Shown: positions 16,763 through 32,872 of the stretch, piece by piece
Numbering within the stretch: the stretch's first letter is position 1
Layout: the number at the start of each line of letters is the position of its first letter
NCBI RefSeq assembly: GCF_041346945.1
Contig: NZ_CP166850.1
Location: 2,232,001-2,296,000, forward strand
From: Amycolatopsis sp. cg9
GTDB lineage: Bacteria; Actinomycetota; Actinomycetes; Mycobacteriales; Pseudonocardiaceae
DNA: 64,000 bases
Reading direction: 5' to 3'
Made by a program: the position numbers and the translations under genes
Notes under the pieces: generated by a model
The model's database searches: none
What the model saw: only the letters and a program-made list of their open reading frames with translations
What the model was told of the DNA's origin: nothing

Positions 16763-16769
16763 GCTTCTC

Positions 16770-17537
16770 CTAACCCTGGAACCCGGCCGGCACCGGAGCG
16801 GTCGGCAGGAACTGCTGGTGCAGCTTAAGCCAGGTCCCGTCGGAGATCACCTGCTTGAGCCCGTCGTTGACCTTCCCGAGCAGTTCGGCGTTGCCCTTCT
16901 TCACGGCGAAACCGTGCGGCACGTCGGTGACGAAGCTCTTCACGACGACGAGCTTGGCGTCCGGGTTGTCGGTGACGTTCTTCTCGGCGATGCTCTGGTC
17001 GAGGATGTACGCGTCGACGGCGCCGGTCTTGAGCGCGGTCAGCGCGGCCGCGTAGTCGGGGAAGCGCACGGCCTGCGCGGCGGGCACGGTGCTGGTCAGC
17101 CAGTGGTCGCCGACGGTCGCCTGGATGACGGCGACGCGCTTGCCCGCCAGGCCCTTCTCGTCGGTGACCGGGGTGCCCTGCTTGGCCTGGATGCTCATCG
17201 TCTCGAAGTCGTAGGCCGCGGAGAAGTCGACCGTCTTCTTGCGCTCGTCGGTCTGCGCGATCGCCGAGCTGGCGATGTCGAAGCGGCCGGAGGCGACCTG
17301 CCCGAGCAGCGCGGAGAAGTCGGTCGAGGCGAACTCCAGCTTCAGGTTCTGCTTGGCCGCGATGGCCTTGAGCAGCTCGTTGTCGAAGCCGGTGTAGTTC
17401 CCGTCCTTCAGGTAGACGTTGGGCGGCGCGTCGCTCAGCGTCCCCACGCGCAGCGTCGAGGAAGCGCTCTCGGAACCCCCGCCGCACGCGGTGAGCGTGA
17501 GGGCGGCGGCCAGCACGGTGACGATCAGCTTCTTCAT
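16770..17537 (-). CDS. amino acid ABC substrate-binding lipoprotein (copy 2)
   Basis: 255 aa, second of three tandem paralogues. Signal peptide MKKLIVTVLAAALTLTAC with lipobox Cys18, then SSTLRVGTLSDAPPNVYLKD. The binding-fold motifs GFDNELLKAIAAKQNLKLEF and TDERKKTVDFSAAYDF match copy 1 closely, so the pair looks like a recent duplication. The ATG at 17537 follows the copy 3 stop after a single base; an in-frame GTG 9 nt earlier would give MRDMKK. It has no strong SD sequence, so translation is likely coupled to copy 3. Confidence 0.9.
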   Translation of the reverse strand: MKKLIVTVLAAALTLTACGGGSESASSTLRVGTLSDAPPNVYLKDGNYTGFDNELLKAIAAKQNLKLEFASTDFSALLGQVASGRFDIASSAIAQTDERKKTVDFSAAYDFETMSIQAKQGTPVTDEKGLAGKRVAVIQATVGDHWLTSTVPAAQAVRFPDYAAALTALKTGAVDAYILDQSIAEKNVTDNPDAKLVVVKSFVTDVPHGFAVKKGNAELLGKVNDGLKQVISDGTWLKLHQQFLPTAPVPAGFQG

Positions 17538-17538
17538 G

Positions 17539-18357
17539 TCACGCACCCGCGTTCTTGACCGGCAGCCCGGGGCCGCCCTGCTGGAGTTCCTTCGACAGCG
17601 GCGTGTTCTTGTAGAACTGGCCGTAGATCCGGGCGACCGTACCGTCGGCGACGGCTTTCCGCAGGCCGTCGTTGAGCTTGTTCAGCAGATCGGTGTTCGT
17701 CTTGGCGACCGCGAACGCCGACGGGGTGTCCTTGTCCTCGACCGTGTAGCCGAGCTCCAGCGGCACGCCGGGGTTCTGGTCCAGGTACTTCTGGCCGATG
17801 TCCTGCGGCACGACCCAGCCGTCGAGCGTGCCGTTCTTCAGCTGCGCGAAGCCCGCGTTGTAGTCGGGGAAGCGGACGACCTGCGCACCGGCGGTCTTGC
17901 CGGCGAGCTCGTCCTGCACCGAACCCTGGACCACGCCGAGGCGCTTGCCCGACAGCGCGGCGACGTCCTTGAGGTTGGCGCCCTTCGCCGTGACGACGGT
18001 GGTGAAGCCGGTGTTGTAGCCGTCGGAGAAGGCGACCGTCTTCTTGCGCGCCTCGGTGCTCGAGATCGTCGAGCTGCCGATGTCGAACTTGCCGGTCGCG
18101 ACGCCGGCCAGCAGGCTGGAGAACTCGGTGCCGACGAACTCGACCTCGAAGCCCTCACGCTTGGCGATGTCGCGCAGCAACTCGTTGTCGTAGCCGGTGA
18201 AGCGGCCGTTCTCCAGGTAGATCGACGGCGGGGCGTCGCTCAGGGTCCCGACGCGCAGGGTCTTCGTCCCCGCGTCGGAACCACCGCAGGCGGCCAGGGT
18301 CAACGTCAGCGCGCCCGCGGTGAGGGCGGCGGCGATCTTGGACAGCGTGGATCTCAT
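17539..18357 (-). CDS. amino acid ABC substrate-binding lipoprotein (copy 3)
   Basis: 272 aa, first gene of the operon and the most divergent of the three. The signal peptide ends in LTLAAC (lipobox), then TKTLRVGTLSDAPPSIYLENGRFTGYDNELLRDIA. Binding-pocket residues in the second lobe (QVVRFPDYNAGFAQLKNGTLDG) differ from the other copies, hinting at another ligand, and the C-terminus is longer. The ATG at 18357 (MRSTLSK) is preferred over one 12 nt upstream because GGAAGAAG then serves as SD. A 114-nt gap to purB should contain the operon promoter; TAATCT around 18413-18418 (minus strand) is a possible -10. Confidence 0.88.
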   Translation of the reverse strand: MRSTLSKIAAALTAGALTLTLAACGGSDAGTKTLRVGTLSDAPPSIYLENGRFTGYDNELLRDIAKREGFEVEFVGTEFSSLLAGVATGKFDIGSSTISSTEARKKTVAFSDGYNTGFTTVVTAKGANLKDVAALSGKRLGVVQGSVQDELAGKTAGAQVVRFPDYNAGFAQLKNGTLDGWVVPQDIGQKYLDQNPGVPLELGYTVEDKDTPSAFAVAKTNTDLLNKLNDGLRKAVADGTVARIYGQFYKNTPLSKELQQGGPGLPVKNAGA

Positions 18358-18471
18358 CGCTTCTTCCATGGTGAGGACTGGCGCTTCACAGCGCTCCGTG
18401 GTCAGCGATCGAGATTAGGGATTTCGCCCGTTCGAGTGGATTCGTTCCATTCTGTGGACGGGTGCGTCAGC

Positions 18472-19899: not shown

Positions 19900-20738
19900 G
19901 CCCTAACGATACCTGTGCAGGTCAGGCTCATCGAAGCACCCGGGGCCAGCACGGTCAGCGGGCCGAGCACCTCCAGCTCGACGATCCGCGCCGGCGGGTC
20001 CAGGTCACCCAGCTCCGCGAGCGGCGAAGGCAGCGGGTGCTCCAGCCAGATCTCCAGCGGCGAGCCCTCGTCCGGGTACTCCCCGGCCGGATCCACGTCG
20101 AAGGAGAGCGTCAACGCCCCGTACGTCACCCACCCCGCCGTGCCCGGCACGCCCAGCTTGCCGACGACGTCCTGCGGCGGCACGACCAGCCGGTCACCGT
20201 CCACTGTGTACTCCGGCGTGCCGGTGCCCGCCACCAGCGCGACGACCTCGGGCGTCCGGAGCCCCGCGGTGACCGCGCCGCCGCCCGGGAGCTGGGTCAC
20301 GTTCCACAGCGCCCAGCGCACCCGGCGCCCGGACACGTTCTCCGCGCGCAGGTCCAGCCGGTAGCCGTCGTCGAGGATCGTGATCGCGCGCGTGAGCCGC
20401 AAGCCGGTGCGCGGGTCCGGTGCGCTGGTCATGGTCACCGTGTCGCCGTTCGTCACCGCGGTGTACGGGCCGGAGTCGAGGACCGGGTCGGGCGGGCCGG
20501 GCCACTGGTCCGGACCATCCCACCCCTGCGGCGCGGGCCACGTCTTGTCGCCGCCGTAGTTGACCCAGTCGCCCATCCGGCCGGAGTTCGGGCCGTACTC
20601 GCCGCGCAGGTCGTCGCCGAGCAGCGCCGGGTCGCGCCAGAGCAGCTCGGCGTCGCGGTACCGCACCGACAGGAGCCGGCCGCCCAGCTCCGGGACCAGG
20701 CCGAGGCGCAGGTCGCCGCGCTCGAGCCAGGTCACCAT
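19896..20738 (-). CDS. DUF4380/galactose mutarotase-like protein
   Basis: 280 aa. The N-terminus WLERGDLRLGLVPELGGRLLSVRYRDAELLW and the later segments VNYGGDKTWPAPQGW and LWNVTQLPGGG are typical of DUF4380 proteins, which have the aldose-1-epimerase beta-sandwich fold. Given its place between galactonate dehydratase and purB in a galactose operon, an epimerase (mutarotase) acting on galactose is a sensible guess, but no tested member is known to me. ATG 20738 overlaps the dehydratase stop by 7 nt and its own stop overlaps purB by 4 nt. Confidence 0.72.
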   Translation of the reverse strand: MVTWLERGDLRLGLVPELGGRLLSVRYRDAELLWRDPALLGDDLRGEYGPNSGRMGDWVNYGGDKTWPAPQGWDGPDQWPGPPDPVLDSGPYTAVTNGDTVTMTSAPDPRTGLRLTRAITILDDGYRLDLRAENVSGRRVRWALWNVTQLPGGGAVTAGLRTPEVVALVAGTGTPEYTVDGDRLVVPPQDVVGKLGVPGTAGWVTYGALTLSFDVDPAGEYPDEGSPLEIWLEHPLPSPLAELGDLDPPARIVELEVLGPLTVLAPGASMSLTCTGIVRA

Positions 20739-21877
20739 TCGGCGAGGCTCCCGTCGTCGTGGCGCCACACCGGCGAGCGCCACGCGTGCCCGGTTTCGTC
20801 GGCGCGGCGGACGGCCGCTTCGTCGACCTCGATGCCGAGCCCGGGCTTCAGCGGCCGGGCCGCGTAGCCGTCCTGGAAGGCGAAGAGCGACGGGTCCACG
20901 AGGTACTGGTGCTCGCGGCCCTCGTGGTAGTGCATGCCGACGCTCTGTTCCTGGATCAGGAAGTTCGGCGTCGCGAACGCCACCTGCAGCGAGGCCGCCA
21001 GGGAGATCGGGCCCAGCGGGCAGTGCGGTGCGAGCGAAGCGCCGTACACCTCCGCGAGCGCGCCGATCCGCCGCAGCTCGGAAATGCCGCCGGCGTGCGA
21101 GGGGTCCGGCTGGACCACCGCGACGCCGGCGTCGAGCACCGGCTTGAACTCCCAGCGCGAGTAGAGCCGTTCGCCGACCGCGATCGGCACGGTGGACGCC
21201 TCGACCACCGAGCGCAGCGCGTCGCCTTGGGTCTCCGGCAGGATCGGTTCCTCGACGAACATCGGCTGGACCTCTTCGAGCAGCCTGACCAGCCGCCGGG
21301 CCATCGCCGGGGAGACGCGGCCGTGGAAGTCGATCGCCAGGTCGCGGTGCGGGCCGAGCACCTCCCGCGCCTCCCACGCGCGCGCCACCGCCGCCTCGGC
21401 TTCGGCGGGCGACGCGATCGCCGTCAGCGGGCCGGCGACGTTCATCTTCACCGCGGTGAACCCGGCTTCGACCTGCGCGGACACGGCTTCGCGGATGCCG
21501 GACGGCCGGTCGCCGCCGACCCAGCTGTAGACGCGGACGCGGTCGCGGACCGGGCCGCCGAGCAGCTCGTGGACCGGCGCGTCGCGGACCTTGCCCGCGA
21601 TGTCCCACAGCGCGTGGTCGTAGCCCGCCAAAGCACTCGAAAGCACCGGCCCGCCGCGGTAGAAGCCGCCGCGGCGCAGCACCTGCCAGTGGTCCTCGAT
21701 CCGCAGCGGGTCCTGGCCGATCAGCAGCTCGGACAGCTCGTGCACGGCCGCGCGCACGGTCTCCGCGCGGCCCTCGACCACGGGCTCGCCCCAGCCGCAG
21801 ACGCCCTCGTCGGTGCTGAGCTTGAGGAACAGCCAGCGCGGCGCGACCAGAAACGTTTCAACCCCGGTGATCTTCAC
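20732..21877 (-). CDS. dgoD: D-galactonate dehydratase family enolase-superfamily enzyme
   Basis: 381 aa mandelate-racemase/muconate-lactonising enzyme. Metal ligands are visible in AIDFHGR (Asp), FVEEPILPE (Glu) and VGERLYSR (Glu); HCPLGPISLAASLQVA contains the catalytic His region and EQSVGMHYHEG matches the DgoD-type C-terminus. It dehydrates D-galactonate to 2-keto-3-deoxygalactonate. The start MKITGVETFLVAPRWLFLKL is family-standard. It sits 13 nt after the SDR and overlaps the mutarotase-like gene. Related acid-sugar dehydratases cannot be fully excluded, but the alpha-galactosidases and aldolase around it support galactonate. Confidence 0.87.
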   Translation of the reverse strand: MKITGVETFLVAPRWLFLKLSTDEGVCGWGEPVVEGRAETVRAAVHELSELLIGQDPLRIEDHWQVLRRGGFYRGGPVLSSALAGYDHALWDIAGKVRDAPVHELLGGPVRDRVRVYSWVGGDRPSGIREAVSAQVEAGFTAVKMNVAGPLTAIASPAEAEAAVARAWEAREVLGPHRDLAIDFHGRVSPAMARRLVRLLEEVQPMFVEEPILPETQGDALRSVVEASTVPIAVGERLYSRWEFKPVLDAGVAVVQPDPSHAGGISELRRIGALAEVYGASLAPHCPLGPISLAASLQVAFATPNFLIQEQSVGMHYHEGREHQYLVDPSLFAFQDGYAARPLKPGLGIEVDEAAVRRADETGHAWRSPVWRHDDGSLAEW

Positions 21878-21890
21878 CCGTGTCCCCCAT

Positions 21891-22574
21891 CTACGCGGAA
21901 TCCTTGGCGGCGGACCAGCCGCCGTCGACGGTCAGCTCGGCCCCGGTGACGAACGACGCGGCGGCCGAGAGCAGGAAGGCGATCACGTTCGCCACCTCGG
22001 CCGGGTCACCGAGCCGGCCCACCGGCGTCGCCCGCGCGCTGCGTTCGCGGTCCGCCGCCGAGATGCGGTTCCAGGCTTCGGTCAGCACCGGCCCCGGCAG
22101 CACGGAGTTGACGCGCACGTCGGGCGCGTATTCGACGGCCAGCTGCCGGGCCAGCGCGACCAGCGCGCCCTTGCTCGCGGCGTACGCGGGGTGGCCCGGC
22201 AGCCCGAAGTGGGCGTGCACCGACGAGACCAGCACGACCGCGCCGCGCCGTTCGCGAAGGGAGGGCAGGCAGGCTTTCAGCGCGAGGTACGTGCCGGTCA
22301 GGTTGACGTCGAGCTGGCGCTGCCACTCGGCGCGGTCGATCTCGTGCAGGGGCCCGGTGCTGGGGACGTAGGCGTTGCTGACCAGGGCGTCCACCTCACC
22401 GATGCCGGCCCAGGTCGTTTCGTCGGTGACGCTGCCCCGGATCGGGACGACGCCGTCGGGGAGTTCGGCGATGTCCACGCCCAGCACGCGGTAGCCGTCT
22501 GCGAGGAGCTTCCGGGCGGTCGCTTTGCCGATCCCGGACGCCGCTCCGGTCACCACCGCGGTGCGCGTGGACAT
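21891..22574 (-). CDS. SDR family oxidoreductase, probable sugar 1-dehydrogenase
   Basis: 227 aa classical short-chain dehydrogenase: NAD(P)-binding TGAASGIG, active-site Ser in VLVSSVHAH, catalytic YAASK and the C-terminal VTGAELTVDGGW. The acidic residue at the end of the second strand (VLGVDIAE) favours NAD+ over NADP+. In this operon the likely job is oxidation of D-galactose to galactonolactone, the first step of the oxidative pathway, but SDR specificity is hard to predict. ATG 22574 follows AGGAGAGCGGCG and lies 16 nt after the GH27 gene. Confidence 0.87.
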   Translation of the reverse strand: MSTRTAVVTGAASGIGKATARKLLADGYRVLGVDIAELPDGVVPIRGSVTDETTWAGIGEVDALVSNAYVPSTGPLHEIDRAEWQRQLDVNLTGTYLALKACLPSLRERRGAVVLVSSVHAHFGLPGHPAYAASKGALVALARQLAVEYAPDVRVNSVLPGPVLTEAWNRISAADRERSARATPVGRLGDPAEVANVIAFLLSAAASFVTGAELTVDGGWSAAKDSA

Positions 22575-22590: not shown

Positions 22591-24630
22591 CTAGAACTTC
22601 GCTACGTGGACATGGTCGTCCGGTCCGCGGGCGGCGAACCACAGCGACGCGCCGTCGGCCGCCGCCCCCAGGGTGCCCACGATGCTCCCGCTCGGGTACT
22701 CCGGCCGCTTGAACCAGCCCGCCCAGGAGCCGGTCCAGTCGTTGGCCCACAGCGTGTAGTCGCTCGCGGACGCGGTGAGCGCGACCTTCGCGCCGACGGC
22801 GACGAGCGTCGGGCTGCTGCTGACCGTGCCGCCGATGGACGTCCAGTCGGACCAGCTGCCGCCGGTCTTCGTGCGAGCCCAGACGCTGTCGTCGGCGGTC
22901 CGGACGGCGACGACCGTGCCGCTCGTCGACGTCGCCGCGCCGGGCCGGCCGTAGCTCGGCTTGCCACCCGGGGCGCCGAGACCGGACCACTGACCCGTGC
23001 TGGTCCGCTGCCAGACCTGACCGTCGGCGCCACGCGCGAAGACCGTTCCGTCGGTGGTCGCGGACGGCGAGTCGGTGAGCGTGCCGCCGAGCCGCTTCCA
23101 GTCGCCCCAGCTCTTCTGGTAGCTGCGCTGGTAGAGGGCGTTGTCGAGGCCGCGAACGTAGACGTCGACGCCGGTCGCGGTGGCGATGGCGGCGGGCTGG
23201 CCGAGGAACCCGCCGCCGACCTGGCGCGGCCCGTCGAGACCGGTCTGCTGGAGGTTCCCGGCGCGGTCGCGGAAGAACGTGACGGTCTTCCCGCCGGTGC
23301 GGACCACCGCGGGGCTGGCCGACGCGGGCCCGGCCACGTCGGCGCCGGGGACGAGGTCGGTGCCGTGCAGGCGCAGGAACGCCGTTCCGTGCGCGGGCAC
23401 GGTGACCGAGTACTCGCCGGTGGCGCTGCCGCGGTCGGCGCGGGCCCGGAGGTCGCGAACGGACACCCGGCCGGTGAGCCCGGCGTCGGCGAACTGGAGC
23501 GTCATCCGCGTCGGCGCCTCACCGCGGTTGAGCAGCACGACCGCGCGGTCGCCGGAGCGGGAGAGGACCTTGCTGTAGGTGTCCGTGGTGCCGGTCGTCG
23601 CGACGCGGACGCCCTGGGTGCCGAGGCCGTCCTGGTTGACGCCGATGATCTCCGGGTTCTTCAGGGTCTTGAGCATCGACGGGGGCAGCGTGCGCGGGTC
23701 CGAGCCGAGGATCAGCGGGGAGGCCATTTCCGCCCACATGACGAACTGGGTGGTCGACTCCTCTTCGTTCAGCTCGTAGGTGCCCTGCTCGGTCTTGCGC
23801 ATCGGGATCAGGTAGTCGGGGTCGTTGTAGTGGCCGGGCCCGTTCGCCTCGGGGTGCGCGGCGTTGGCGTCCATGTTGCGCAGGACGTCCTTCCAGATGC
23901 CTTCGTACGGCGTGCCGAACGCGATGTCCGTGCTGGTGCGCCAGGAGTCGGCGACGAGCGGGCCGTAGCTGTAGGCGATGCCGGCGACCTGGTCCGGGCC
24001 GTGCGGGACGCCCCACTCGTCGGTGACCGGGTTGCAGACGTTCAGCACCATCGGGCGGCCCGCCTTCGCGAGGGCCCGGCTGAACTGCGTGAACGCCTCG
24101 GCGGGCTTGAGGTTCTGGGCGATGCCGCAGAGGAAGTCGACCTTGACCGCGTCGAACTTCCAGCTCGCGAAGCGCTTGGTGTCCTGCTCGTAGTAGCCGC
24201 CGGAGCCGGCCGCGCAGTTCTTGCCGTCGGAGGCACCCGCGTCGGTGTAGATGCCGGCCTTGAGGCCCTTGCCGTGCAGATAGCTGACCAAAGTGGACAG
24301 TCCGCTGGGGAACTTGGCGGTGTCCTCGTGGAGGTTTCCGCTCGCGTCACGGGGTTCGGGCGCGGTCCAGCCGCCGTCGATCCAGACGTAGCGGTAGCCG
24401 GCGTCGCGCAGGCCGCCGGCGACGAGGAAGTCCGCGACGGACTTGACGGACGCCTCGCTGGGCGCGCCGAGGCCGTAGTAGGTGTTCCAGCCCATGTACG
24501 GGGTCCTCGCGACCCCGCTGTCGTAGTAGTCGGGTGCGCCTTGGTCTGCCGCCGGGGTCGCGTGCGCGGGTACCGCCGTGCAGGTGGCGGCGACCGCGGC
24601 GACCACCGCGAGGGTTCTCTTCAGGAGCAT
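22591..24630 (-). CDS. secreted GH27 alpha-galactosidase with beta-propeller lectin-like tail
   Basis: 679 aa. Signal peptide (MLLKRTLAVVAAVAATCTAVPAHA), then a GH27 catalytic barrel beginning RTPYMGWNTYYGLG, with the nucleophile Asp in AVKVDFLCG and the acid/base Asp in WRTSTDIAFG, followed by the usual C-terminal beta domain. The last ~230 residues are repeats of a WxxLGG/W-Q-R type (DWKRLGGTLTDSPSAT, DWTSIGGTVSSSPTLV), a PLL/tectonin-like beta-propeller that probably binds carbohydrate or the cell surface. It releases galactose outside the cell. First gene of the operon; ATG 24630 chosen for the signal peptide, with GGAGAAAGG upstream. Confidence 0.92.
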   Translation of the reverse strand: MLLKRTLAVVAAVAATCTAVPAHATPAADQGAPDYYDSGVARTPYMGWNTYYGLGAPSEASVKSVADFLVAGGLRDAGYRYVWIDGGWTAPEPRDASGNLHEDTAKFPSGLSTLVSYLHGKGLKAGIYTDAGASDGKNCAAGSGGYYEQDTKRFASWKFDAVKVDFLCGIAQNLKPAEAFTQFSRALAKAGRPMVLNVCNPVTDEWGVPHGPDQVAGIAYSYGPLVADSWRTSTDIAFGTPYEGIWKDVLRNMDANAAHPEANGPGHYNDPDYLIPMRKTEQGTYELNEEESTTQFVMWAEMASPLILGSDPRTLPPSMLKTLKNPEIIGVNQDGLGTQGVRVATTGTTDTYSKVLSRSGDRAVVLLNRGEAPTRMTLQFADAGLTGRVSVRDLRARADRGSATGEYSVTVPAHGTAFLRLHGTDLVPGADVAGPASASPAVVRTGGKTVTFFRDRAGNLQQTGLDGPRQVGGGFLGQPAAIATATGVDVYVRGLDNALYQRSYQKSWGDWKRLGGTLTDSPSATTDGTVFARGADGQVWQRTSTGQWSGLGAPGGKPSYGRPGAATSTSGTVVAVRTADDSVWARTKTGGSWSDWTSIGGTVSSSPTLVAVGAKVALTASASDYTLWANDWTGSWAGWFKRPEYPSGSIVGTLGAAADGASLWFAARGPDDHVHVAKF

Positions 24631-24671
24631 GTGCCGGACGCCTTTCTCCGGTGAACTGCGAGCCGGGAGCA

Positions 24672-24723
24672 GCATGCCGGGGCGCCTCGGCCGCCGTCAA
24701 GAATAAATCCTAAATTAAGATTT
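24672..24723 (-). promoter_or_regulatory. operator-promoter module of the GH27 operon
   Basis: A 19-bp palindrome at 24705-24723, pattern AAATCnTAAnTTAnGATTT, lies between the divergent GH27 operon and the aldolase gene. Reading the minus strand, its core TCnTAAnTTAnGA is followed after exactly 7 nt by TTGACG (24700-24695), a -35 box. A weak -10 (CATGCT, 24676-24671) is 18 nt further. The same arrangement, core-7 nt-TTGACA, recurs at 31489-31514 before the sugar ABC operon. Likely site of the GntR/FCD regulator at 31576. Confidence 0.7.
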
Positions 24724-24730
24724 CACGCGG

Positions 24731-24743
24731 TAGGCTGGCCCGA
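24731..24743 (+). promoter_or_regulatory. probable leaderless -10 element for the aldolase gene
   Basis: TAGGCT at 24731-24736 is followed by six bases and then the ATG at 24743, the spacing of leaderless actinobacterial transcripts. No SD sequence precedes the ATG. The palindrome at 24705-24723 covers the -35 region, so binding there should affect this promoter as well. Confidence 0.5.
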
Positions 24744-25360
24744 TGAGCTATCGATGGGAGATCACCGCGAACGCGTTGCGCCAGGGCGTCGTCGGCATCG
24801 TCCGGACGCACGACGCGGAATCGGCGGTGTCCGCGGCCCGCGCGATCCTGGAGGCCGGGTTGCGCTCGGTGGAGCTGCCGCTGACCAACCCCGGCGCGCT
24901 CGACGCGATCTCCGGGCTCTCGGCGGCCTACCCGGACGCGACGATCGGCGCCGGCACCGTCCTCGACGAGGCCTCCGCGGTGCTCGCGATCCGCGCGGGC
25001 GCCCGGTTCCTCGTGTCCCCGTCGGTCGACGCGGGCGTGATCCGCACCGCTCACCGGTACGGCGCGGCGGCGTTCCCGGGCGCCGGCTCGGTGACCGAAA
25101 TCGTTCAGGCGCTGACGGAAGGCGCCGACGCGGTGAAGGTGTTCCCGGCCTCCGCGTTGTCGCCGTCGTGGGTGTCGGACGTGCGGGCGGCGCTGCCGCA
25201 GGCCCCGCTGGTACCCACCGGCGGCATCGCGCCGGAAGACGTGCCAGGCTGGCTGGCAGCGGGCGCGGTGGCGTGCGGGGTCGGTTCGGCGCTGACCCGG
25301 GGCACCGCCGCGGAGATCGCCGCCCGGGTCGGAACGCTGTTGAGGAGCGCGCATGGCTGA
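24743..25360 (+). CDS. KDPG/KDPGal-type aldolase
   Basis: 205 aa class I aldolase of the Eda/DgoA family. The Glu of the family is in SVELPLTNPGAL, the GAGTVLD loop follows, and the Schiff-base Lys is in DAVKVFPA; PTGGIAPEDVPGWLAAGA binds the phosphate end. It cleaves 2-keto-3-deoxy-6-phosphogalactonate (or -gluconate) to pyruvate and glyceraldehyde 3-phosphate. Location opposite galactonate dehydratase argues for the galacto substrate. No 2-keto-3-deoxygalactonate kinase is in the window, so either the kinase is elsewhere or the enzyme also takes the unphosphorylated acid. Overlaps the lactonase start by 8 nt. Confidence 0.88.
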   Translation: MSYRWEITANALRQGVVGIVRTHDAESAVSAARAILEAGLRSVELPLTNPGALDAISGLSAAYPDATIGAGTVLDEASAVLAIRAGARFLVSPSVDAGVIRTAHRYGAAAFPGAGSVTEIVQALTEGADAVKVFPASALSPSWVSDVRAALPQAPLVPTGGIAPEDVPGWLAAGAVACGVGSALTRGTAAEIAARVGTLLRSAHG

Positions 25361-26354
25361 ACTGGTCTTCGTCGGGTGCTACACCGGTGAAGCGGGGAAC
25401 GGCACGGGGATCACGACGTTCTCCCGGTCCGCCTCCGGTTCGCTGACGGAAGTGGCGTCGCTGCCGCTGGAGTGTCCTTCGTGGCTGGTGCGGCACCCGT
25501 CGCTGCCGGTGCTGTACGCGGTGAACGAGACCGCGACCGGGTCCGTGACGGCGTTGTCGTTCGACGCTTCGGGCTCGTTGTCCGTGCTCGGCGCGCTGGA
25601 GACGGGCGGGGCGCACCCGTGCCACCTGGCGGTGACCCCGGACGGCCGGTTCCTGCTGTGCGCCAACTACACCGGCGGCAGCCTCGCGGTGTTCTCGCTG
25701 TCGCCCTCGGGCGCTTTGCTTTCGCGGACCGCGCTGGCGCAGCACACCGGCAGCGGGCCGCGCACCGATCGCCAAGAGGCGGCCCACGTCCACATGGCGC
25801 TCCCCGGCCCGGGCATCGTGAGCGCGGTCGACCTGGGCACCGACGAGATCCGCAGCTACACGCTCACCCCGTCGGGCGGCCTGGAACCGCTGGCGGTGTC
25901 TTCCCTGCCGCCGGGCACCGGCCCGCGCCAGCTGGTCCGGCGGCCGGGAACGGACCTCGCCTACGTCGTCGGGGAGCTGGCCGGCACGCTGGTGACGGTC
26001 CGGGAAACGGCCCCGGGCGCGTTTTCGGTGGTCGCTTCGACCGCGTCGACCGTCAAGCCGCCTTCGGTGCCGAACCTGGTGGCGCACGTGGAACTGGCCG
26101 ACTCGCGCCTGTACCTGTCGAACCGCGGCCCCGACTGCGTGACGGAGTTCGCCCTCGACGAGGCGGCCGCGGTGGCGGACCAGCCGTGCGGGGCGAATCC
26201 CCGGCACTTCGCGTTGGTGGACGGGACGTGCTACGTGGCGGCGCAGTCGGAGGACGCGATCACGGCGTTCACGCTGACCGCGTCCGGGGAGTCGGAGCTG
26301 CGGTACTACCCGACGGGGTCACCGACGTTCGTGCTGCCGGTTTCCCTGCCCTGA
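25353..26354 (+). CDS. lactonase family beta-propeller protein (YbhE/Lactonase_7-like)
   Basis: 333 aa. The opening LVFVGCYTGEAGNGTGITTFSR and repeats such as HPSLPVLYAVNE, GGAHPCHLAVTPDGRFLLCANYTGGSLAVF and TGPRQLVRRPGTDLAYVVGE are characteristic of the seven-bladed 6-phosphogluconolactonase-like fold. Here it is well placed to open galactono-lactone to galactonate between the SDR and the dehydratase. Translationally coupled to the aldolase (8-nt overlap, ATG in GCGCATGG). Its 3' end overlaps the convergent GH36 gene by 49 nt. Confidence 0.85.
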   Translation: MAELVFVGCYTGEAGNGTGITTFSRSASGSLTEVASLPLECPSWLVRHPSLPVLYAVNETATGSVTALSFDASGSLSVLGALETGGAHPCHLAVTPDGRFLLCANYTGGSLAVFSLSPSGALLSRTALAQHTGSGPRTDRQEAAHVHMALPGPGIVSAVDLGTDEIRSYTLTPSGGLEPLAVSSLPPGTGPRQLVRRPGTDLAYVVGELAGTLVTVRETAPGAFSVVASTASTVKPPSVPNLVAHVELADSRLYLSNRGPDCVTEFALDEAAAVADQPCGANPRHFALVDGTCYVAAQSEDAITAFTLTASGESELRYYPTGSPTFVLPVSLP

Positions 26355-28375
26355 CGGCGCAGGACCACGACGTCGGCGTCGTGGTCCGCCGTCCAGTCGA
26401 ACGGGAGGCCCGCGTACTTGAGGTGCGCACCCGAGTACCGGGCCCCCTTTCCGTCCACATAGGACGACTCCGCGCACACCGCGAGCCGCACCCGGGAGGA
26501 CCGGGCCGGGGTCAGTGGGGCCCCCGTCAACGGGCCCGTGCTCCACGCGAGCACGACCACCGTGTCGCCGTCCTCCGAGGTGTACTGCGTGGCCGCGGTC
26601 GGCGCCGTGGGGGCCGACCGCACCCGGGCCGTGCCGTGGTGGAGCACGTCGCGGATCGACTTGTACGCCGTGATCAGCGCGGCCGCCTCGGAATTCTGCG
26701 CCGGGGTCCAGCGTGAGAGATCCGCGCCGATGCCCAGCACGCCCGCCATCGCCGTGACGAAGCGGAAGCGCAGCGAGCGGGGGCGGGGGTCGAAGACGCC
26801 CGGGGAGTCCGTCACCCAGGAGCTCATCAGGTGCGGTGCGTGCATCAGCAGGAACCCGTCCTGGATCGCGAGGCGGTCCAGCGGCCCGGTGTTGTCGCTC
26901 GGCCACACCACGTCCGCGCGGGCCACCGTCGCCAGGTCGGTCCGGCCGCCGCCGCCCGCGCACGCCTCCACCGTCACGTGCGGGTGGGAAGCGCGCAGGT
27001 GGTCCAGCACCGACAGGTACCCCGCGACGTGCTCGGCGTCCAGGTCCGCGAACGGCGAGCCCGGGCGGCCGCGTTCGGTCGGCGGGCGGTTCATGTCCCA
27101 CTTCAGGTACGAAATCGGATACGTCGTCAGCAATGAGTCCAGAGTGGACTTCACGAAGTCCACCACCGAAGGAAGCCCCAGGTCCAGCAGCAGCTGGTTG
27201 CGGATCAACGTCAGCGGGCGGCCGTCGATGCGGTACACCCAGTCCGGGTGCTCCGCGTACAGCCGTGACTTCGGGCTGACCGCCTCCGGCTCGACCCACA
27301 AGCCGAACTCCAGGCCCAGTTCCCGCACCGAGTCGACGAACGCGCCGAACGCCGGTTCCGCGGGCGTCCAGTCGCCGAGGCCGCCGGTGTCGTCGTCGCG
27401 GCCGGTGAACCAGCCGTCGTCCACCACGAACAGCTCGACGCCGAGGTCCGCCGCCCGCTTCGCCAGCTCCAGCTGGTGCGAGGCCCGGACGTCGAAGCCG
27501 GTCGCCTCCCACGAGTTGTACAACACCGGACGCGGGCGCTGCCACCGCGAACCCGCCAGGACACGGTCGTAGTCGTGCCACACCGCGGCCAGTCCCGCCA
27601 GTCCGTCCGCACTGGACGCCAGAGCGACGCGCGGGGTGGCCAGGGTGGCACCCGGTTCCAAGAGAACCGGGCCCGGTGAGGGCAGCCGCCCGGCCCGGAC
27701 GCGCGTCAACCCCGAAGGCTCGACGTCCGCCTCGATGGACCACGAACCCGGCCATTCCAGCGAGACGCCGAAAGCGGGCCCACCGGACGCGTCCTGCACC
27801 GCCAGCCACGGCACGTGCGCGTGCCCGGGGACGCCGAAGCGGCTCTCCATCCGGAAGCCGCCCGCGGGCAGGTCCAGCGAGCGGCGGGTGAACTCCTGCG
27901 ACCACTGGCCGGTCAAGTACGTCAAGCGGGCGCCGGAAACCGTCGGCACGCAGACGCCCGCCGAGCCGAGCCGGTCGAACTCCAAAGTGGACGATCCCGT
28001 GTTCTCGAACTCGACCCAGCGGGTGAGCACGTCGGTCTCCGGGACCGCGCGGTAGCAGAGCACGGCCCGCAAGCCGGAAACCTCGTCCACGAAGGCCAGG
28101 CGCAGGTCAGCACCCGAAGAAGCCGAGTCGAACCGCCACCACGAGCCACCGCGCACGGCGACGTCCGCGCCGGAGAACGGGCGCAGGCCCAGCGGGGCGT
28201 ACTCCACCGGCGCCGCGTCGGCTTCGGTGATGAAGTGCACGGCACCGCGGTTGGCGAACACCGACGGCCCGTCCTCGATCCCGGCCGGTCCCCACGCGAT
28301 GAGCTCGGCCCACCGGGCGGACGGATCCAGCGCCACGGTGTACGAAGTCGTCGCCATCGACACGGTCCACGTCAC
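26306..28375 (-). CDS. cytoplasmic GH36 alpha-galactosidase
   Basis: 689 aa without signal peptide. N-terminal beta-sandwich, then the GH36 barrel starting near RPVLYNSWEATGFDV; the nucleophile Asp is in YLKWDMNRP and the acid/base Asp in WPSDNTGPLDR, with CAGGGGRTDL between them. Hydrolyses alpha-galactosides such as melibiose or raffinose after import. Last gene of the sugar ABC operon: start GTG 28375 overlaps the permease stop in GTGA; an internal ATG at 28357 is possible. Together with the secreted GH27 enzyme it allows digestion outside and inside the cell. It carries two copies of the TCCANNGTGGAC motif. Confidence 0.92.
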   Translation of the reverse strand: MTWTVSMATTSYTVALDPSARWAELIAWGPAGIEDGPSVFANRGAVHFITEADAAPVEYAPLGLRPFSGADVAVRGGSWWRFDSASSGADLRLAFVDEVSGLRAVLCYRAVPETDVLTRWVEFENTGSSTLEFDRLGSAGVCVPTVSGARLTYLTGQWSQEFTRRSLDLPAGGFRMESRFGVPGHAHVPWLAVQDASGGPAFGVSLEWPGSWSIEADVEPSGLTRVRAGRLPSPGPVLLEPGATLATPRVALASSADGLAGLAAVWHDYDRVLAGSRWQRPRPVLYNSWEATGFDVRASHQLELAKRAADLGVELFVVDDGWFTGRDDDTGGLGDWTPAEPAFGAFVDSVRELGLEFGLWVEPEAVSPKSRLYAEHPDWVYRIDGRPLTLIRNQLLLDLGLPSVVDFVKSTLDSLLTTYPISYLKWDMNRPPTERGRPGSPFADLDAEHVAGYLSVLDHLRASHPHVTVEACAGGGGRTDLATVARADVVWPSDNTGPLDRLAIQDGFLLMHAPHLMSSWVTDSPGVFDPRPRSLRFRFVTAMAGVLGIGADLSRWTPAQNSEAAALITAYKSIRDVLHHGTARVRSAPTAPTAATQYTSEDGDTVVVLAWSTGPLTGAPLTPARSSRVRLAVCAESSYVDGKGARYSGAHLKYAGLPFDWTADHDADVVVLRRQGRETGSTNVGDPVG

Positions 28376-29190
28376 TTGATCGCCCCGATCGCGAGCCCGG
28401 AAATGAAGTGCTTCTGGAACCGCAGGAACACGGCCACGGTCGGGACGGCCGCGAGGACCGACCCCGCCGCGATCACGTTCCAGTTGGACACGTACTGCCC
28501 CTGCAGGCCGAGCAGCGCCGGCGTCACCGGCATCACCGAGCCGGTGCGCAGCACGGTGATCGACCACAGCAGGTCGTTGAACGTCCAGGTGAACGCCAGC
28601 GCGCCGAGCGCCGCGAGCGCCGGGCGGGTCATCGGCAGGATGATCCGCCAGAAGATCTGGACGACACCGGCGCCGTCGATCAGCGCGGCCTGCTGCACCT
28701 CGTCCGGGATCGACCGCATGAACCCCTGCAGCACGAACGTGTAGAACCCCAGTCCGAACCCGACCTGGACGACGATCAGCGCGGTCAGCGTGTCGTAGAT
28801 GCCGAGCAGCTCGGCCAGCTTCGCCACCGGTACCAGCAGGATCTGCGGCGGCAGCAGGTTGCCGGACAGCATCACCAGGATCAGCGTGCGGCGAAACGGG
28901 ATCGCGTACCGGCTCAGCGCGAACGCCGCCGCCGCGCTCAGCAGCAGCGCGAGCAGCACCGTCGGGATGGTGACGAGCAGGCTGTTCAGCATCGCGTGCC
29001 CACCGCCGCCCTCGCCCCACGCCTGGCCGAAGCCGTCGAGCGTGAACGACGAAGGCAGCGCGCCCAGCCCGTTCGACGCGATGTCCGGAAAGGACCGGAC
29101 GCTCGTGGTCAGCACGAGCAGGATCGGCAGCAGCCACAGCACCGCGAGCCCGCCCGCGACCAGGTGGAAACCGAAGGTCCGCGGCTTCAC
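28372..29190 (-). CDS. carbohydrate ABC transporter permease (MalG-like)
   Basis: 272 aa, six predicted TM helices. The C-terminal half has the EAA loop EVQQAALIDGAGVVQIFWRIILPMTRPALAALG, which contacts the ATPase. Such importers use the shared MsiK-type ATPase encoded elsewhere in actinobacteria; none is found in this operon. GTG 29190 overlaps the upstream permease stop in GTGA. Likely imports alpha-galactosides for the GH36 enzyme downstream. Confidence 0.92.
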   Translation of the reverse strand: MKPRTFGFHLVAGGLAVLWLLPILLVLTTSVRSFPDIASNGLGALPSSFTLDGFGQAWGEGGGGHAMLNSLLVTIPTVLLALLLSAAAAFALSRYAIPFRRTLILVMLSGNLLPPQILLVPVAKLAELLGIYDTLTALIVVQVGFGLGFYTFVLQGFMRSIPDEVQQAALIDGAGVVQIFWRIILPMTRPALAALGALAFTWTFNDLLWSITVLRTGSVMPVTPALLGLQGQYVSNWNVIAAGSVLAAVPTVAVFLRFQKHFISGLAIGAIK

Positions 29191-30104
29191 GAGTCCTCCC
29201 GGAAGGCACGCACGAGGTAGGTGACGATCACGCCGAACGCCAGCACGAAGATCACCACGGCCAGCGCGGACGCGTAGCCGAGCCGCAGCGACTGGAACGC
29301 CGTCGCGTACATGTACGTGCTGAGCAGCTCGGACGAGTGGTACGGCCCGCCCTTCGTCATCGACCAGACGACGTCGAAGGAGCGCAGGGAGTCGATGATG
29401 ATCACCGACAGGACGACGGAGTTGACGCTGCGCAGCTGCGGCCACGTCACGTTGCGGAACTGCTGCCACGCGGTGGCACCGTCCAATTTGGCCGCCTCGT
29501 AGAGCGCCGGGTCGATGCCCTTGAGCCCGGCCAGGTACAGCACCATGACGTACCCGACCTGGCGCCACAGCGCCGGCACGAGCACCGCGTACAGCGCGGT
29601 CTTCGGGTCGGCCAGCCACGAGTGCTGCCAGCTTTCCAGCCCGAGCGCGCCGAGCACCTTGTTGAAGACGCCGTCCGGCTGGTAGATCACCTGCCAGATC
29701 AGCGACGTCGCGACCAGCGAGAACACCACCGGCGTGAACAGCGCGGCCCGGTAGAACCCGACCCCGCGCCGCTCGCGCTGCAGGAGCGTGGCCAACGCGA
29801 GCCCGCCGGCCGCCGAGAGCCCGCCGAAGAGCACCAGCCAGATCACCGTGTCCAGCGCGGCGGTCTTGAAGATGTCGTCGGAGAACATCTCGGCGAAGTT
29901 CCCGAAGCCGACGAACGCCGGCGCCGAGACGCCGTCCCAGTTCGTCAGCGCCAGGTAGAACCCCTGCAGCGCGGGCCAGAACACCCAGAACCCCTCGACC
30001 AGGAGGGGTACCAGGACGAACGCGAGCAGCACGGGCGAGACGCGGCGACGGCGCTTCGGGGCCCGCGCCGCCGTCTTCGGCCGTTCGGCGGTCAGCACCG
30101 CCAT
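29187..30104 (-). CDS. carbohydrate ABC transporter permease (MalF-like)
   Basis: 305 aa. A short basic N-terminus (RAPKRRRRVSPVLL) precedes the first of six TM helices; the EAA loop is DPALYEAAKLDGATAWQQFRNVTWPQLRSVN. Forms the heterodimeric channel with the following permease. ATG 30104 lies 1 nt after the binding-protein stop, so the operon is tightly packed. Confidence 0.92.
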   Translation of the reverse strand: MAVLTAERPKTAARAPKRRRRVSPVLLAFVLVPLLVEGFWVFWPALQGFYLALTNWDGVSAPAFVGFGNFAEMFSDDIFKTAALDTVIWLVLFGGLSAAGGLALATLLQRERRGVGFYRAALFTPVVFSLVATSLIWQVIYQPDGVFNKVLGALGLESWQHSWLADPKTALYAVLVPALWRQVGYVMVLYLAGLKGIDPALYEAAKLDGATAWQQFRNVTWPQLRSVNSVVLSVIIIDSLRSFDVVWSMTKGGPYHSSELLSTYMYATAFQSLRLGYASALAVVIFVLAFGVIVTYLVRAFREDS

Positions 30105-30105
30105 G

Positions 30106-31404
30106 TCAGGACTGCCAGACCTTCTGCGCGGCGGTCTGCCAGTCGGCCAGGATCGAGTCGAGCTCGTTCGGCTTCTGGATGAACCGGATCAGCGCGGCGT
30201 CGGCGGTCGGCTGCAGCGCGTCGGAGGAGTCGCGGTTGAAGAACTGCGTGATCTCCTTGGCGTCCGCGAGCATCTTCCGTCCCTTTTGGACCAGTGGTGT
30301 GCCGGTGTCCTTCGCGGACGGGTTGGTCGGCAGCACGGTGCCGGAGGAGTTCTTGATGTAGAGCTCCTGCGCCTCGGCGGTCGCGACGTAGGAGAACCAC
30401 TCCTTGACCTCGGCGACGTGCGGCGTGCGCGCGCTGGCGAAGAAGCCGTCGGTCGGGCCCTCTTCGGCGACCGGCACCGCGGGGTCGAGGATCGGGAACT
30501 GGAAGAAGTCGAGGTCGCCGAGCGCGTCCTTCGGCGCGGCGTCGGCGAAGAACGTGCCGGTCAGGACCATGCCGGTGCGGCCCTGCAGCAGCACGGTGGT
30601 GGCGTCCTGGAACGCGATCGCGGTGCCGTTCGGGTCGAAGTACGGCAGGGCCTGGCGCCACGGGTCGAAGACCTTCTTGACGCGCGGGTCGTCGAAGCGC
30701 TGCTTGCCCGCGAGCAACTCGCGGTGGAAGGGCGCGCCGTTGATCCGGATGTTCAGGTAGTCGAACCACGCCGACGCGGTCCACGGCGTGTTGCCGCCCG
30801 CGCCGAGGCCGATCGGCGCGATCCCCTTGCCCTTCAGGGTTTCGCAGAGCGCGAGGAACTCGGTCCAGTTCGTCGGCGGCTGGACGCCCCACTTCGCGAA
30901 GTTGGACTTCCGGTAGAAGAAGCCCCACCAGTAGTAGGACGTCGGGACGAAGACCTGGTGCCCGGCACCGTCGCCGGAGAGCGCGCGGAAGGCGGCGCTG
31001 TAGCCGTCCATGGTCTGCCAGACGTCGCCGATGTCGAGAAGCAGGCCCTTGCGGGCGTAGCCGGACAGCAGCGAACCCGGGTACCACGTGTAGGTGTCGG
31101 GCGGGTTGGCCGCGGTGAGGTAGCTGGGCAGCTGGGTGCGGAAGGTTTCCGACGCCACCGTGTTCACGGTCGCCGTCGCGCCGCCCTTCTCGCCGAACGC
31201 CTTGGCCAGCGCCTCGATGGCCTTCTTGGCTTCGGGCGAGGACAGGTTCGACTGGACGGTGACCGCGCCGGCGGCCTGCTTGACCGGGCCGTTGGACGCG
31301 GAAGTGGCGCAGGCGGCGAGGAAGCTGCTCGAGCCGATGGCCCCCAGCCCGGCGAGGCTCGCGTTGCGCAGGAAACGACGGCGGGACAGGCCGGCACTCG
31401 TCAT
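30106..31404 (-). CDS. sugar-binding lipoprotein, Tat-exported
   Basis: 432 aa family 1 extracellular solute-binding protein. The N-terminus has a twin-arginine signal (SRRRFLRNAS) and a lipobox ending LAAC near residue 32, so it is folded before export and lipid anchored. The body matches sugar-binding proteins of ABC importers (TYTWYPGSLLSGYARKGLLLDIGDVW, YYWWGFFYRKSNFAKWG with several aromatics likely lining the sugar pocket). First gene of the operon with two permeases and GH36. ATG 31404 follows AAAGGGG. The promoter with GntR-type operator is ~90 nt upstream. Confidence 0.92.
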   Translation of the reverse strand: MTSAGLSRRRFLRNASLAGLGAIGSSSFLAACATSASNGPVKQAAGAVTVQSNLSSPEAKKAIEALAKAFGEKGGATATVNTVASETFRTQLPSYLTAANPPDTYTWYPGSLLSGYARKGLLLDIGDVWQTMDGYSAAFRALSGDGAGHQVFVPTSYYWWGFFYRKSNFAKWGVQPPTNWTEFLALCETLKGKGIAPIGLGAGGNTPWTASAWFDYLNIRINGAPFHRELLAGKQRFDDPRVKKVFDPWRQALPYFDPNGTAIAFQDATTVLLQGRTGMVLTGTFFADAAPKDALGDLDFFQFPILDPAVPVAEEGPTDGFFASARTPHVAEVKEWFSYVATAEAQELYIKNSSGTVLPTNPSAKDTGTPLVQKGRKMLADAKEITQFFNRDSSDALQPTADAALIRFIQKPNELDSILADWQTAAQKVWQS

Positions 31405-31470
31405 GTCGTGACCCCTTTGTCTTGGCGCGCTGTCTAGGTGCCCGCACGGGCGTGACTGCTGCCAAAGAGT

Positions 31471-31537
31471 GCAACCGGGCGCCGCCGCTGTCAAGATGTA
31501 TTCATAATTTATGACGACTTCGCAGGCAGCGTAGGAT
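31471..31537. promoter_or_regulatory. divergent operator-promoter of sugar ABC operon and gntR-type gene
   Basis: TCATAATTTATGA at 31502-31514 is a perfect 13-bp palindrome. On the minus strand it is followed after 7 nt by TTGACA (31494-31489), the -35 box for the sugar ABC operon. On the plus strand its right half supplies TTATGA (31509-31514), 17 nt before TAGGAT (31532-31537), a likely promoter for the regulator gene. A bound repressor would block both. The layout matches the module at 24672-24723. Confidence 0.7.
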
Positions 31538-31575: not shown

Positions 31576-32277
31576 TTGACCGAACACCGGCCACGCGGGT
31601 TGCACGGCCAGACCGTGGAGGCACTGGCCAGCCGGATCCTCTCCGACGAGTGGGGCGAGGGAACCGTCCTCGACCTGCCGGCACTGCGCGAAGAGCTCGA
31701 CATCAGCCTGACCGCGCTGCGCGAAGCGCTGAAAGTGCTGGCCGCGAAGGGCATGATCGACGCCCGGCAGAAGCGCGGCACGTTCGTCCAGCCGCGCGAG
31801 AAGTGGAACATGCTCGACGCCGACGTGATGCGCTGGCAGACCGCGGCCGCCGACGACCCGGGCCTGCTCGACGAGCTCACCGAAGTCCGCGCGGTCGTGG
31901 AGCCCGCCGCGGCCCGGATCGCCGCCGGGCGCGCGTCGGAGGAGGACGTCGAGGGGCTGCGGGAAGCGCTCGCCGACATGGCCGCGGCCGCCGGCGACGC
32001 GGAGGCGAGCGTCCAGGCCGACCTCGCCTTCCACCGGCGGCTGATGGCCGCCACCCACAACAACTTCCTGATGCGGATGGAGCGGGTCATCGCGATCGGC
32101 CTGGCCGAGCGCGACAAGCTGGTGCACGGGGCGTCATCGGCGGAGGACCCGGTGCCGAGCCACCGGAAGGTCTTCGACGCGATCGTGTCCGGCGACCCCG
32201 CGGCAGCCGAGCAGGCGATGCTGGCCCTGGTCACGAAGTCCCGCGACGACCTCGAGCGGGCTCAGCGCAAGTCGTGA
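31576..32277 (+). CDS. GntR-family regulator, FadR/FCD subfamily (DgoR-like)
   Basis: 233 aa. N-terminal winged helix (LHGQTVEALASRILSDEW ... LREELDISLTALREALKVLAAKGMIDARQKRGTFV) and a C-terminal all-helical FCD domain with likely metal/ligand residues in ADLAFHRRLMAATHN and SHRKVFDAI. Relatives such as DgoR sense galactonate-like acids. Start is TTG at 31576, eight bases after GAGAGGG. It is divergent from the sugar ABC operon and its promoter overlaps the shared palindrome, so autoregulation and control of both galactose operons is the natural inference. Confidence 0.87.
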   Translation: MTEHRPRGLHGQTVEALASRILSDEWGEGTVLDLPALREELDISLTALREALKVLAAKGMIDARQKRGTFVQPREKWNMLDADVMRWQTAAADDPGLLDELTEVRAVVEPAAARIAAGRASEEDVEGLREALADMAAAAGDAEASVQADLAFHRRLMAATHNNFLMRMERVIAIGLAERDKLVHGASSAEDPVPSHRKVFDAIVSGDPAAAEQAMLALVTKSRDDLERAQRKS

Positions 32278-32281
32278 GCGC

Positions 32282-32872
32282 TCAGGCCAGCGCGGCCTGG
32301 AGCATGCGGGCCGCGGCCGCGCGGGGTTCGGGGTCGATCTCGATCAGCGCGTTCACGACCGCGCCGTCGACCAGGGCGATCAGCCGCTCGAGGTCGGTGG
32401 CGGAGACCGGCGTGCCCGAGCGGGCGAAGATCTCCGTCAGCAGCTCGTTGAGCTGGGCCGACAGCGTCCGCATCAACGGCCGCAGGTAGGGCCGGCGGCC
32501 GGTCGCGACCAGCCGCTCGTAGCGCAGGAGGACGGCTTCGGCGTCGGCCTCCGGGTCGCCGCTCTCCGGGCCCAGCAGCATCTCCAGCACCAGCTCGACC
32601 GTCGCCTGCACGCCGCGGTTGCGGGTCGCCAGCTCCTCGAGCCGGCGGCGACCCGTCTCCAGCTCGGCGTTCGCGTGGTGCTCGACGGCCGCCGTGACGA
32701 GCTCCTCGAGCGAGTCGAAGTAGTACGTCGTCGACGCGAGCGGCAGGCCGGCCCGTTCGGCGACCGCCCGGTGCCGGACGGCGTCGAACCCGCCCTCGGC
32801 GAGCAGCTTCGCGGCGGCCTCGACGAGCGCGGCGCGGCGTCGCTCCCCCTTCGGGGTGGTCGCTCCGGTCAT
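32282..32872 (-). CDS. TetR family transcriptional regulator
   Basis: 196 aa. HTH region RRAALVEAAAKLLAEGGFDAVRHRAVAERAGLPLASTTYYFDSLEEL is classic TetR_N; the rest is the helical ligand domain with no recognisable specificity. Converges on the GntR gene with 4 nt between stops and is divergent from no obvious target, so its regulon is unknown. The ATG at 32872 has no clear SD and may be leaderless. Confidence 0.88.
   Translation of the reverse strand: MTGATTPKGERRRAALVEAAAKLLAEGGFDAVRHRAVAERAGLPLASTTYYFDSLEELVTAAVEHHANAELETGRRRLEELATRNRGVQATVELVLEMLLGPESGDPEADAEAVLLRYERLVATGRRPYLRPLMRTLSAQLNELLTEIFARSGTPVSATDLERLIALVDGAVVNALIEIDPEPRAAAARMLQAALA

Follow-up and report, generated by a model that had tools for sequence, protein, structure and literature searches.

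A predicted DgoR-like regulon of Amycolatopsis sp. cg9 for alpha-galactosides and galactose, with palindromic operators outside the published FadR-type consensus

For the FadR subfamily of GntR regulators, the operator consensus is given as TKGT/ACMA, with GT-N3-AC for DgoR, and BioR (TTATMKATAA) and NanR are named as exceptions without the GT...AC core (PMC4494728). DgoR of Escherichia coli, a repressor of D-galactonate metabolism, is described as binding two closely spaced repeats that overlap its promoter (PMC12288454). Structure 7c7e is that of its C-terminal domain (PMC12288454, PMC7674646), for which a metal triad D146/H150/H195 and Arg102 in the galactonate pocket are reported (PMC7674646). 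Here we analyse a stretch of 64,000 nucleotides (nt) from the soil actinomycete Amycolatopsis sp. cg9 (contig NZ_CP166850.1, positions 2,232,001 to 2,296,000), hereafter the window, in whose own numbering all positions are given. It encodes a DgoR-like GntR/FCD regulator of 233 residues (gntR, 31576–32277, plus strand, TTG start; Pfam GntR and FCD) and contains two putative operators in a cluster of sugar genes. We consider it highly likely that this protein is an autoregulated galactonate-type FCD/GntR repressor that controls four promoters through the two operators. Binding, the direction of control and the effector are what we infer from the sequence.

Two palindromic sites and four promoters

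The genome-wide motif search proposed in an initial annotation of this DNA returned exactly two places for the 13-letter palindromic pattern TCNTAANTTANGA in the 10.6 Mb genome. Both lie in the control regions where that annotation had seen them: predicted operator 1 (TCCTAAATTAAGA, 24708–24720) between the GH27 and aldolase promoters, and predicted operator 2 (TCATAATTTATGA, 31502–31514) between the ABC and gntR promoters. The reversed pattern, used as a control, has no exact place in the whole genome. At one mismatch the pattern gives 5 places, the two operators among them, against 3 in the control. Hence, looser matches are noise and only the exact sites stand out. Conserved flanks lengthen operator 1 to approximately AATAAATCCTAAATTAAGATTT. 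The GT-N2/3-AC core of FadR-type operators is absent from both window sites. Two sets of candidates for further regulon members were rejected. The asymmetric pattern ATTCNTAANTTA with one mismatch gave a single extra place (C1:1940802), inside a mechanically called open reading frame (ORF), and the three additional one-mismatch palindromes, of which only the ORF context was looked at, equal the control in number.

From operator 1 the minus strand leads into genes for a glycoside hydrolase of family GH27, a short-chain dehydrogenase/reductase (SDR) and DgoD, and the plus strand into aldolase and lactonase genes. From operator 2 the minus strand leads into genes for the solute-binding protein (SBP) and two permeases of an ATP-binding cassette (ABC) importer and for GH36, and the plus strand into gntR. 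Both operators are AT-rich and directly upstream of a minus-strand TTGAC. As the initial annotation had noted, 7 nt and then TTGAC(G/A)GCGGC follow each site on the minus strand: TTTATTC and TTGACGGCGGC at operator 1, ATACATC and TTGACAGCGGC at operator 2. The two modules had been called identical. They are similar only, and the accompanying count was right, with the same letter at 23 of 31 positions when 31-mers are aligned from both operators.

Promoter boxes were read from the sequence and transcription starts were inferred from spacing. On the minus strand, the GH27-SDR-dgoD promoter (24671–24700) consists of TTGACG (24695–24700), 18 nt and CATGCT (24671–24676), and the ABC/GH36 promoter (31466–31494) of TTGACA (31489–31494), 17 nt and CACTCT (31466–31471). 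The operator centres lie at about -50 and -49, respectively, and in both promoters the -35 and -10 boxes are free of operator overlap. On the plus strand, the -35 region of the aldolase-lactonase promoter (24708–24736; -10 TAGGCT at 24731–24736) lies within operator 1, whose centre is at about -29. The gntR promoter (31509–31537) uses the right half of operator 2 as its -35 box (TTATGA, 31509–31514), 17 nt from TAGGAT (31532–31537), with the operator centre at about -36. The overlaps with the -35 regions of gntR and aldolase, both claimed previously, are thus found as boxes read from the sequence, and they would fit plain repression and autoregulation. In the stretch 24731–24745 the aldolase ATG (24743) stands 6 nt past the -10 box, and comparable spacing is seen for gntR and SBP genes in Lentzea. 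This transcript is probably leaderless, with a start placed by spacing.

Conservation of the sites with the regulator gene

We fetched 80 related GntR loci and scanned the best 40 (L006–L045) for the motif, leaving out the more distant L046–L085. The nearest named loci are all from Amycolatopsis and 94–98% identical. At least one control-region site within two mismatches is present in 32/40 loci (L006–L037), and the same 797 kb contain only 23 other places within two mismatches. Amycolatopsis sp. MtRt-6 has the same cluster twice in one assembly (L010, L011), alike in this region, which may reflect a duplication or an assembly artefact; L011, being identical to L010 here, was omitted from the spacing tables. 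Two Streptomyces homologues (L040, L041) have AATAAATTA(G/C)TAATAAATATTGACG in common upstream of gntR; this may be a drifted operator, placed on the opposite side of a -35 box.

A site precedes gntR in all 19 ABC-bearing loci, being exact in 16 and carrying one mismatch in 2 and two mismatches in 1; in all 19 the minus-strand TTGAC follows at exactly 7 nt. A CANNCT box lies a further 17 nt on in 16/19 and 18 nt on in 2; L029 has GAGCCT. On the GH27/aldolase side, 13 of the 16 loci with GH27 carry a site within two mismatches, and TTGAC stands at 7 nt from 12 of these 13 (exception L032). In the three loci with GH27 that lack this second site (L023, L024, L029), GH27 adjoins GH36 on the downstream side of the latter, with no aldolase-lactonase pair between them, and one promoter could serve both genes. 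TTGAC is missing at 11/12 sites without an adjoining GH27 gene (L035 retains it). Consequently, TTGAC seems to be a promoter element on the minus strand, the -35 box, and not a component of the operator. When redundancy is reduced to a set of 12 sites, conservation of the block TGTCAAGA...ATTC.TAATTTA exceeds that of its surroundings, and both palindrome halves are conserved across sites.

Ten of the 40 loci are compact, with dgoD-SDR on one side and aldolase-lactonase-gntR on the other (aldolase was not found in two); no GH27, GH36 or ABC gene was found in the fetched stretch of any of them. The aldolase-side operator is kept in all ten, exactly in 7, with a single mismatch in 1 and with two mismatches in 2, and its AATAAA-like 7-nt spacer is still conserved where TTGAC is gone. 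No site within two mismatches lies next to gntR, which here follows lactonase, in any of the ten. Remnants can be seen before gntR, namely the left half-site TTCATAAT in L009, L013, L015 and L016 and the -10 box TAGGAT in L018, L019 and L020. The gntR-side site thus decays once its promoter is unnecessary, behaving as a real operator would. Since the compact loci keep regulator and operator with no alpha-galactosidase or ABC genes nearby, they suggest that the core of the regulon is galactose/galactonate oxidation, not alpha-galactosides. The earlier statement that all four transcripts handle alpha-galactosides is therefore too narrow: it holds for the two transcripts with alpha-galactosidases (GH27, GH36), not for all four, as 10/40 loci combine regulator, operator and galactonate genes without GH27, GH36 or ABC genes in the fetched stretch.

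The genus set comprised 80 genomes, with 49 carriers of an orthologue at E <= 1e-90; at E <= 1e-30 a GntR homologue is present in 53/80, and the four weaker ones were counted as lacking the orthologue. The exact site occurs in 32/49 Amycolatopsis genomes with the orthologue and in 2/31 without it (Fisher p 1e-7, although kinship makes this value overstate independence). Within 12 kb of a gntR orthologue lie 46 of the 53 exact sites, in 28 genomes; of the remaining 7, none of the 5 that were fetched shows a cluster gene. The assignment of four transcripts to one regulator, already made in the initial annotation, is thus favoured by the comparative data, as the motif would appear to follow gntR.

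In the family set of 150 genomes a narrower pattern was used (centre base A or T only), which 24 genomes match. Outside the present genome there are 26 loci: 11 adjoin a homologue of GntR, SBP or GH27, and the other 15 have no cluster gene within 3 kb. The 13-mer by itself is no safe marker beyond the cluster. At L155, L157–L161, L163, L166, L168, L178 and L180, TCCTAATTTAGGA is embedded in recurrent flanks or in palindromes of another kind, and the 3 kb stretches show no cluster gene. A recurrent site of a different type, TCATAATTTATGAT next to GACGTC arms, is found upstream of another gene at L121:1501, L125:1501, L167:1501 and L177:1501, with a TTGACA/GTTAATGATGA-like stretch nearby. At L169–L172 a GH27 gene with roughly 61% identity has the operator and, 7 nt from it, TTGAC (judged by eye), and there is no GntR match in 3 kb; this GH27 gene may possibly be regulated in trans.

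The regulator and its probable action

The regulator has an N-terminal GntR winged helix-turn-helix (wHTH, PF00392, 46.8 bits) and a C-terminal FCD domain (PF07729, 85.7 bits), both over the cut-off, and its predicted fold (mean predicted local distance difference test, pLDDT, 89.6) matches GntR/FCD structures. By sequence, the closest relative of solved structure is 7c7e, at E 6e-32 against 1e-14 for the next best. Asp149, His153, His196 and Arg105 align with D146, H150, H195 and R102 of DgoR and are invariant in 30/30 aligned proteins, six of which come from the more distant loci. DgoR R224 falls near Arg223/Asp225 (by eye). The protein is probably a DgoR-like, metal-containing sugar-acid sensor.

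In the recognition helix, the window protein carries Leu at position 45. The proteobacterial relatives in the alignment have Arg there, as do Rugosimonospora and L055, a distant actinobacterial locus; the other aligned actinobacterial homologues share the Leu. The same alignment position is Arg45 in FadR, which we take to read the G of GT...AC. Loss of this Arg would fit the loss of GT...AC from the operators as a correlation. Seven homologues that have Leu at position 45 and lack the motif speak against a simple Arg-to-Leu rule.

We propose the following mechanism. The two palindromes would be operators of the GntR/FCD protein. A dimer at operator 2 would cover the gntR -35 box and the AT-rich stretch upstream of the ABC/GH36 -35 box. 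A dimer at operator 1 would lie over the -35 box and spacer in front of aldolase-lactonase and over the DNA preceding the GH27-SDR-dgoD promoter. With no inducer present, all four promoters would be repressed, those on the minus strand by blocked upstream contacts of RNA polymerase. Once alpha-galactosides enter and are cleaved, galactose would be oxidised to galactonate. Galactonate, or a close product, would then bind the FCD pocket and release the protein from DNA.

Several observations weigh against this repressor model or parts of it. The minus-strand operators lie near -50, outside the core promoter, and since they stand just upstream of TTGAC, repression there would need the blocking of upstream polymerase contacts. 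In 21/49 Amycolatopsis genomes with the orthologue, gntR has no exact site nearby, although variant sites are present in named relatives. No match within two mismatches was found in six Streptomyces loci and one of Saccharopolyspora (L038–L041, L043–L045), and the Rugosimonospora locus (L042) has only a dissimilar one-mismatch match. The 50 matches listed in the fold search are other GntR/FCD proteins, with DgoR not singled out. W181 and T191 of the DgoR pocket align with Val183 and Pro192 (by eye), so galactonate as ligand is not assured. Finally, DgoR of E. coli uses two close repeats over one promoter, in contrast to the single sites here.

The position near -50, clear of -35 and -10, might instead indicate a two-faced switch, in which the same dimer represses the gntR/aldolase side and activates ABC and GH27 through contact with RNA polymerase. 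A gap of exactly 7 nt in 19/19 ABC loci and 12/13 GH27-side sites is what a protein contact on one helical face would lead one to expect. The AATAAA-like spacer, however, is conserved at compact sites without TTGAC and may simply belong to a longer operator, an explanation that this conservation favours over a distance set by contact. Moreover, sugar-acid regulators of the GntR/FadR type are described as usually being repressors (PMC12288454). We regard such a switch as rather unlikely. Its more specific form, in which a DgoR-like regulator has changed its DNA code (Arg to Leu in the recognition helix, GT-N3-AC to TAA-N-TTA) and from one operator represses one divergent promoter while activating the other across a constant gap of 7 nt, appears to us unlikely.

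The palindrome could also belong to another regulator, with gntR a mere neighbour or target. The motif lacks the GT...AC core given for FadR-type operators (PMC4494728) and stands away from the cluster at 7/53 exact genus sites and 15/26 family loci. Against another owner, the site tracks gntR across genera, which favours one regulator for both operators. The unusual motif also agrees with Leu at the position of the base-reading Arg45 of FadR, though the seven homologues with Leu and without the motif limit this argument. We consider another owner very unlikely. The neighbouring TetR gene (32282–32872) was rejected as a candidate owner: it was found in 16/40 loci, all from Amycolatopsis, and in none of L022–L045, while L022–L037 keep the motif. 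It is extremely improbable that the sites are kept for RNA polymerase alone, as AT-rich UP or promoter elements with no dedicated repressor, although their base composition and their place just upstream of TTGAC would allow this. Both palindromic halves are conserved, the aldolase-side site survives the loss of TTGAC, the gntR-side site decays in compact loci, and exact sites track the presence of gntR (32/49 against 2/31 genomes).

The gene cluster compared with described systems

The cluster presumably serves uptake and cleavage of alpha-galactosides and a galactose route of the De Ley-Doudoroff type. The minus-strand operon of operator 1 encodes GH27 alpha-galactosidase (22591–24630; Pfam Melibiase_2, signal-peptide-like N-terminus judged by eye), an SDR oxidoreductase that by context is a candidate galactose dehydrogenase (21891–22574), and D-galactonate dehydratase DgoD (20732–21877; NCBIfam NF010624 equivalog, 587 bits, cut-off 311). 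On the plus strand follow an aldolase of the 2-keto-3-deoxy-6-phosphogalactonate/-gluconate (KDPGal/KDPG) type (24743–25360; Pfam Aldolase PF01081, TIGR01182 barely over its cut-off) and a seven-bladed propeller lactonase (25353–26354; Pfam PF10282), by context a candidate galactonolactonase. The minus-strand operon of operator 2 comprises the sugar ABC SBP (30106–31404; Pfam SBP_bac_1, signal with RRRFLR), permease 1 (29187–30104; Pfam BPD_transp_1), permease 2 (28372–29208; Pfam BPD_transp_1, 5' end approximate) and GH36 alpha-galactosidase (26306–28390; Pfam Melibiase PF02065, start codon uncertain). Further off on the minus strand (15983–18369), a single permease and an ATPase are preceded by three related solute-binding proteins of the amino-acid type in tandem (judged by eye), an unusual multiplicity.

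The regulator gene is linked to galactonate dehydratase and KDPGal-type aldolase, both present in the window; DgoD was found in 29/40 and the aldolase in 23/40 loci, counted in fetched stretches of which several end before dgoD. In the relative L012 a pfkB-type kinase lies between operator and aldolase, i.e. inside the operon. With this kinase as query, no 2-keto-3-deoxygalactonate (KDGal) kinase was found in the window. A search for the DGOK family found none in the genome, the same search being positive in 2/14 known genomes as a control. Elsewhere in the genome there are pfkB-type kinases that resemble 2-keto-3-deoxygluconate (KDG)/KDGal kinases, all below the NCBIfam cut-offs.

Among the matches listed from open-licence literature (titles and abstract openings), no paper dealt with this regulon or motif in Amycolatopsis or Pseudonocardiaceae, and none matched galactonate together with Amycolatopsis. 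The locus provides a sharply defined regulon, open to experimental testing, through which Amycolatopsis and its relatives would use galactose and alpha-galactosides, with comparative evidence that ties the regulator to an operator unlike the FadR-type consensus in the literature. Recognition helix and operator may have changed as a pair, and operators are lost where gene order has made them superfluous; both points would make it a good natural case for the evolution of a repressor-DNA code.

Compared with the De Ley-Doudoroff galactose pathway, candidate dehydrogenase, lactonase, DgoD and KDPGal-type aldolase are likewise found in one predicted regulon; here, however, a DGOK-family kinase is missing and the pfkB-type candidates sit outside the cluster. 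With DgoR of E. coli the regulator shares wHTH and FCD domains, the Asp-His-His metal set, the counterpart of Arg102 and linkage to galactonate dehydratase and aldolase. It differs in that TAA-N-TTA palindromes in two divergons replace GT-N3-AC, W181 and T191 are not kept, and the predicted regulon includes alpha-galactosidases and an ABC importer. As in other FadR-subfamily systems, a short AT-rich palindrome occupies the divergon that contains the regulator gene, the position described as usual (PMC4494728), whereas neither window site has the GT...AC core. Comparison gives good support to reading this locus as a DgoR-like regulon of known kind that takes in more genes and uses an operator not covered by the published consensus.

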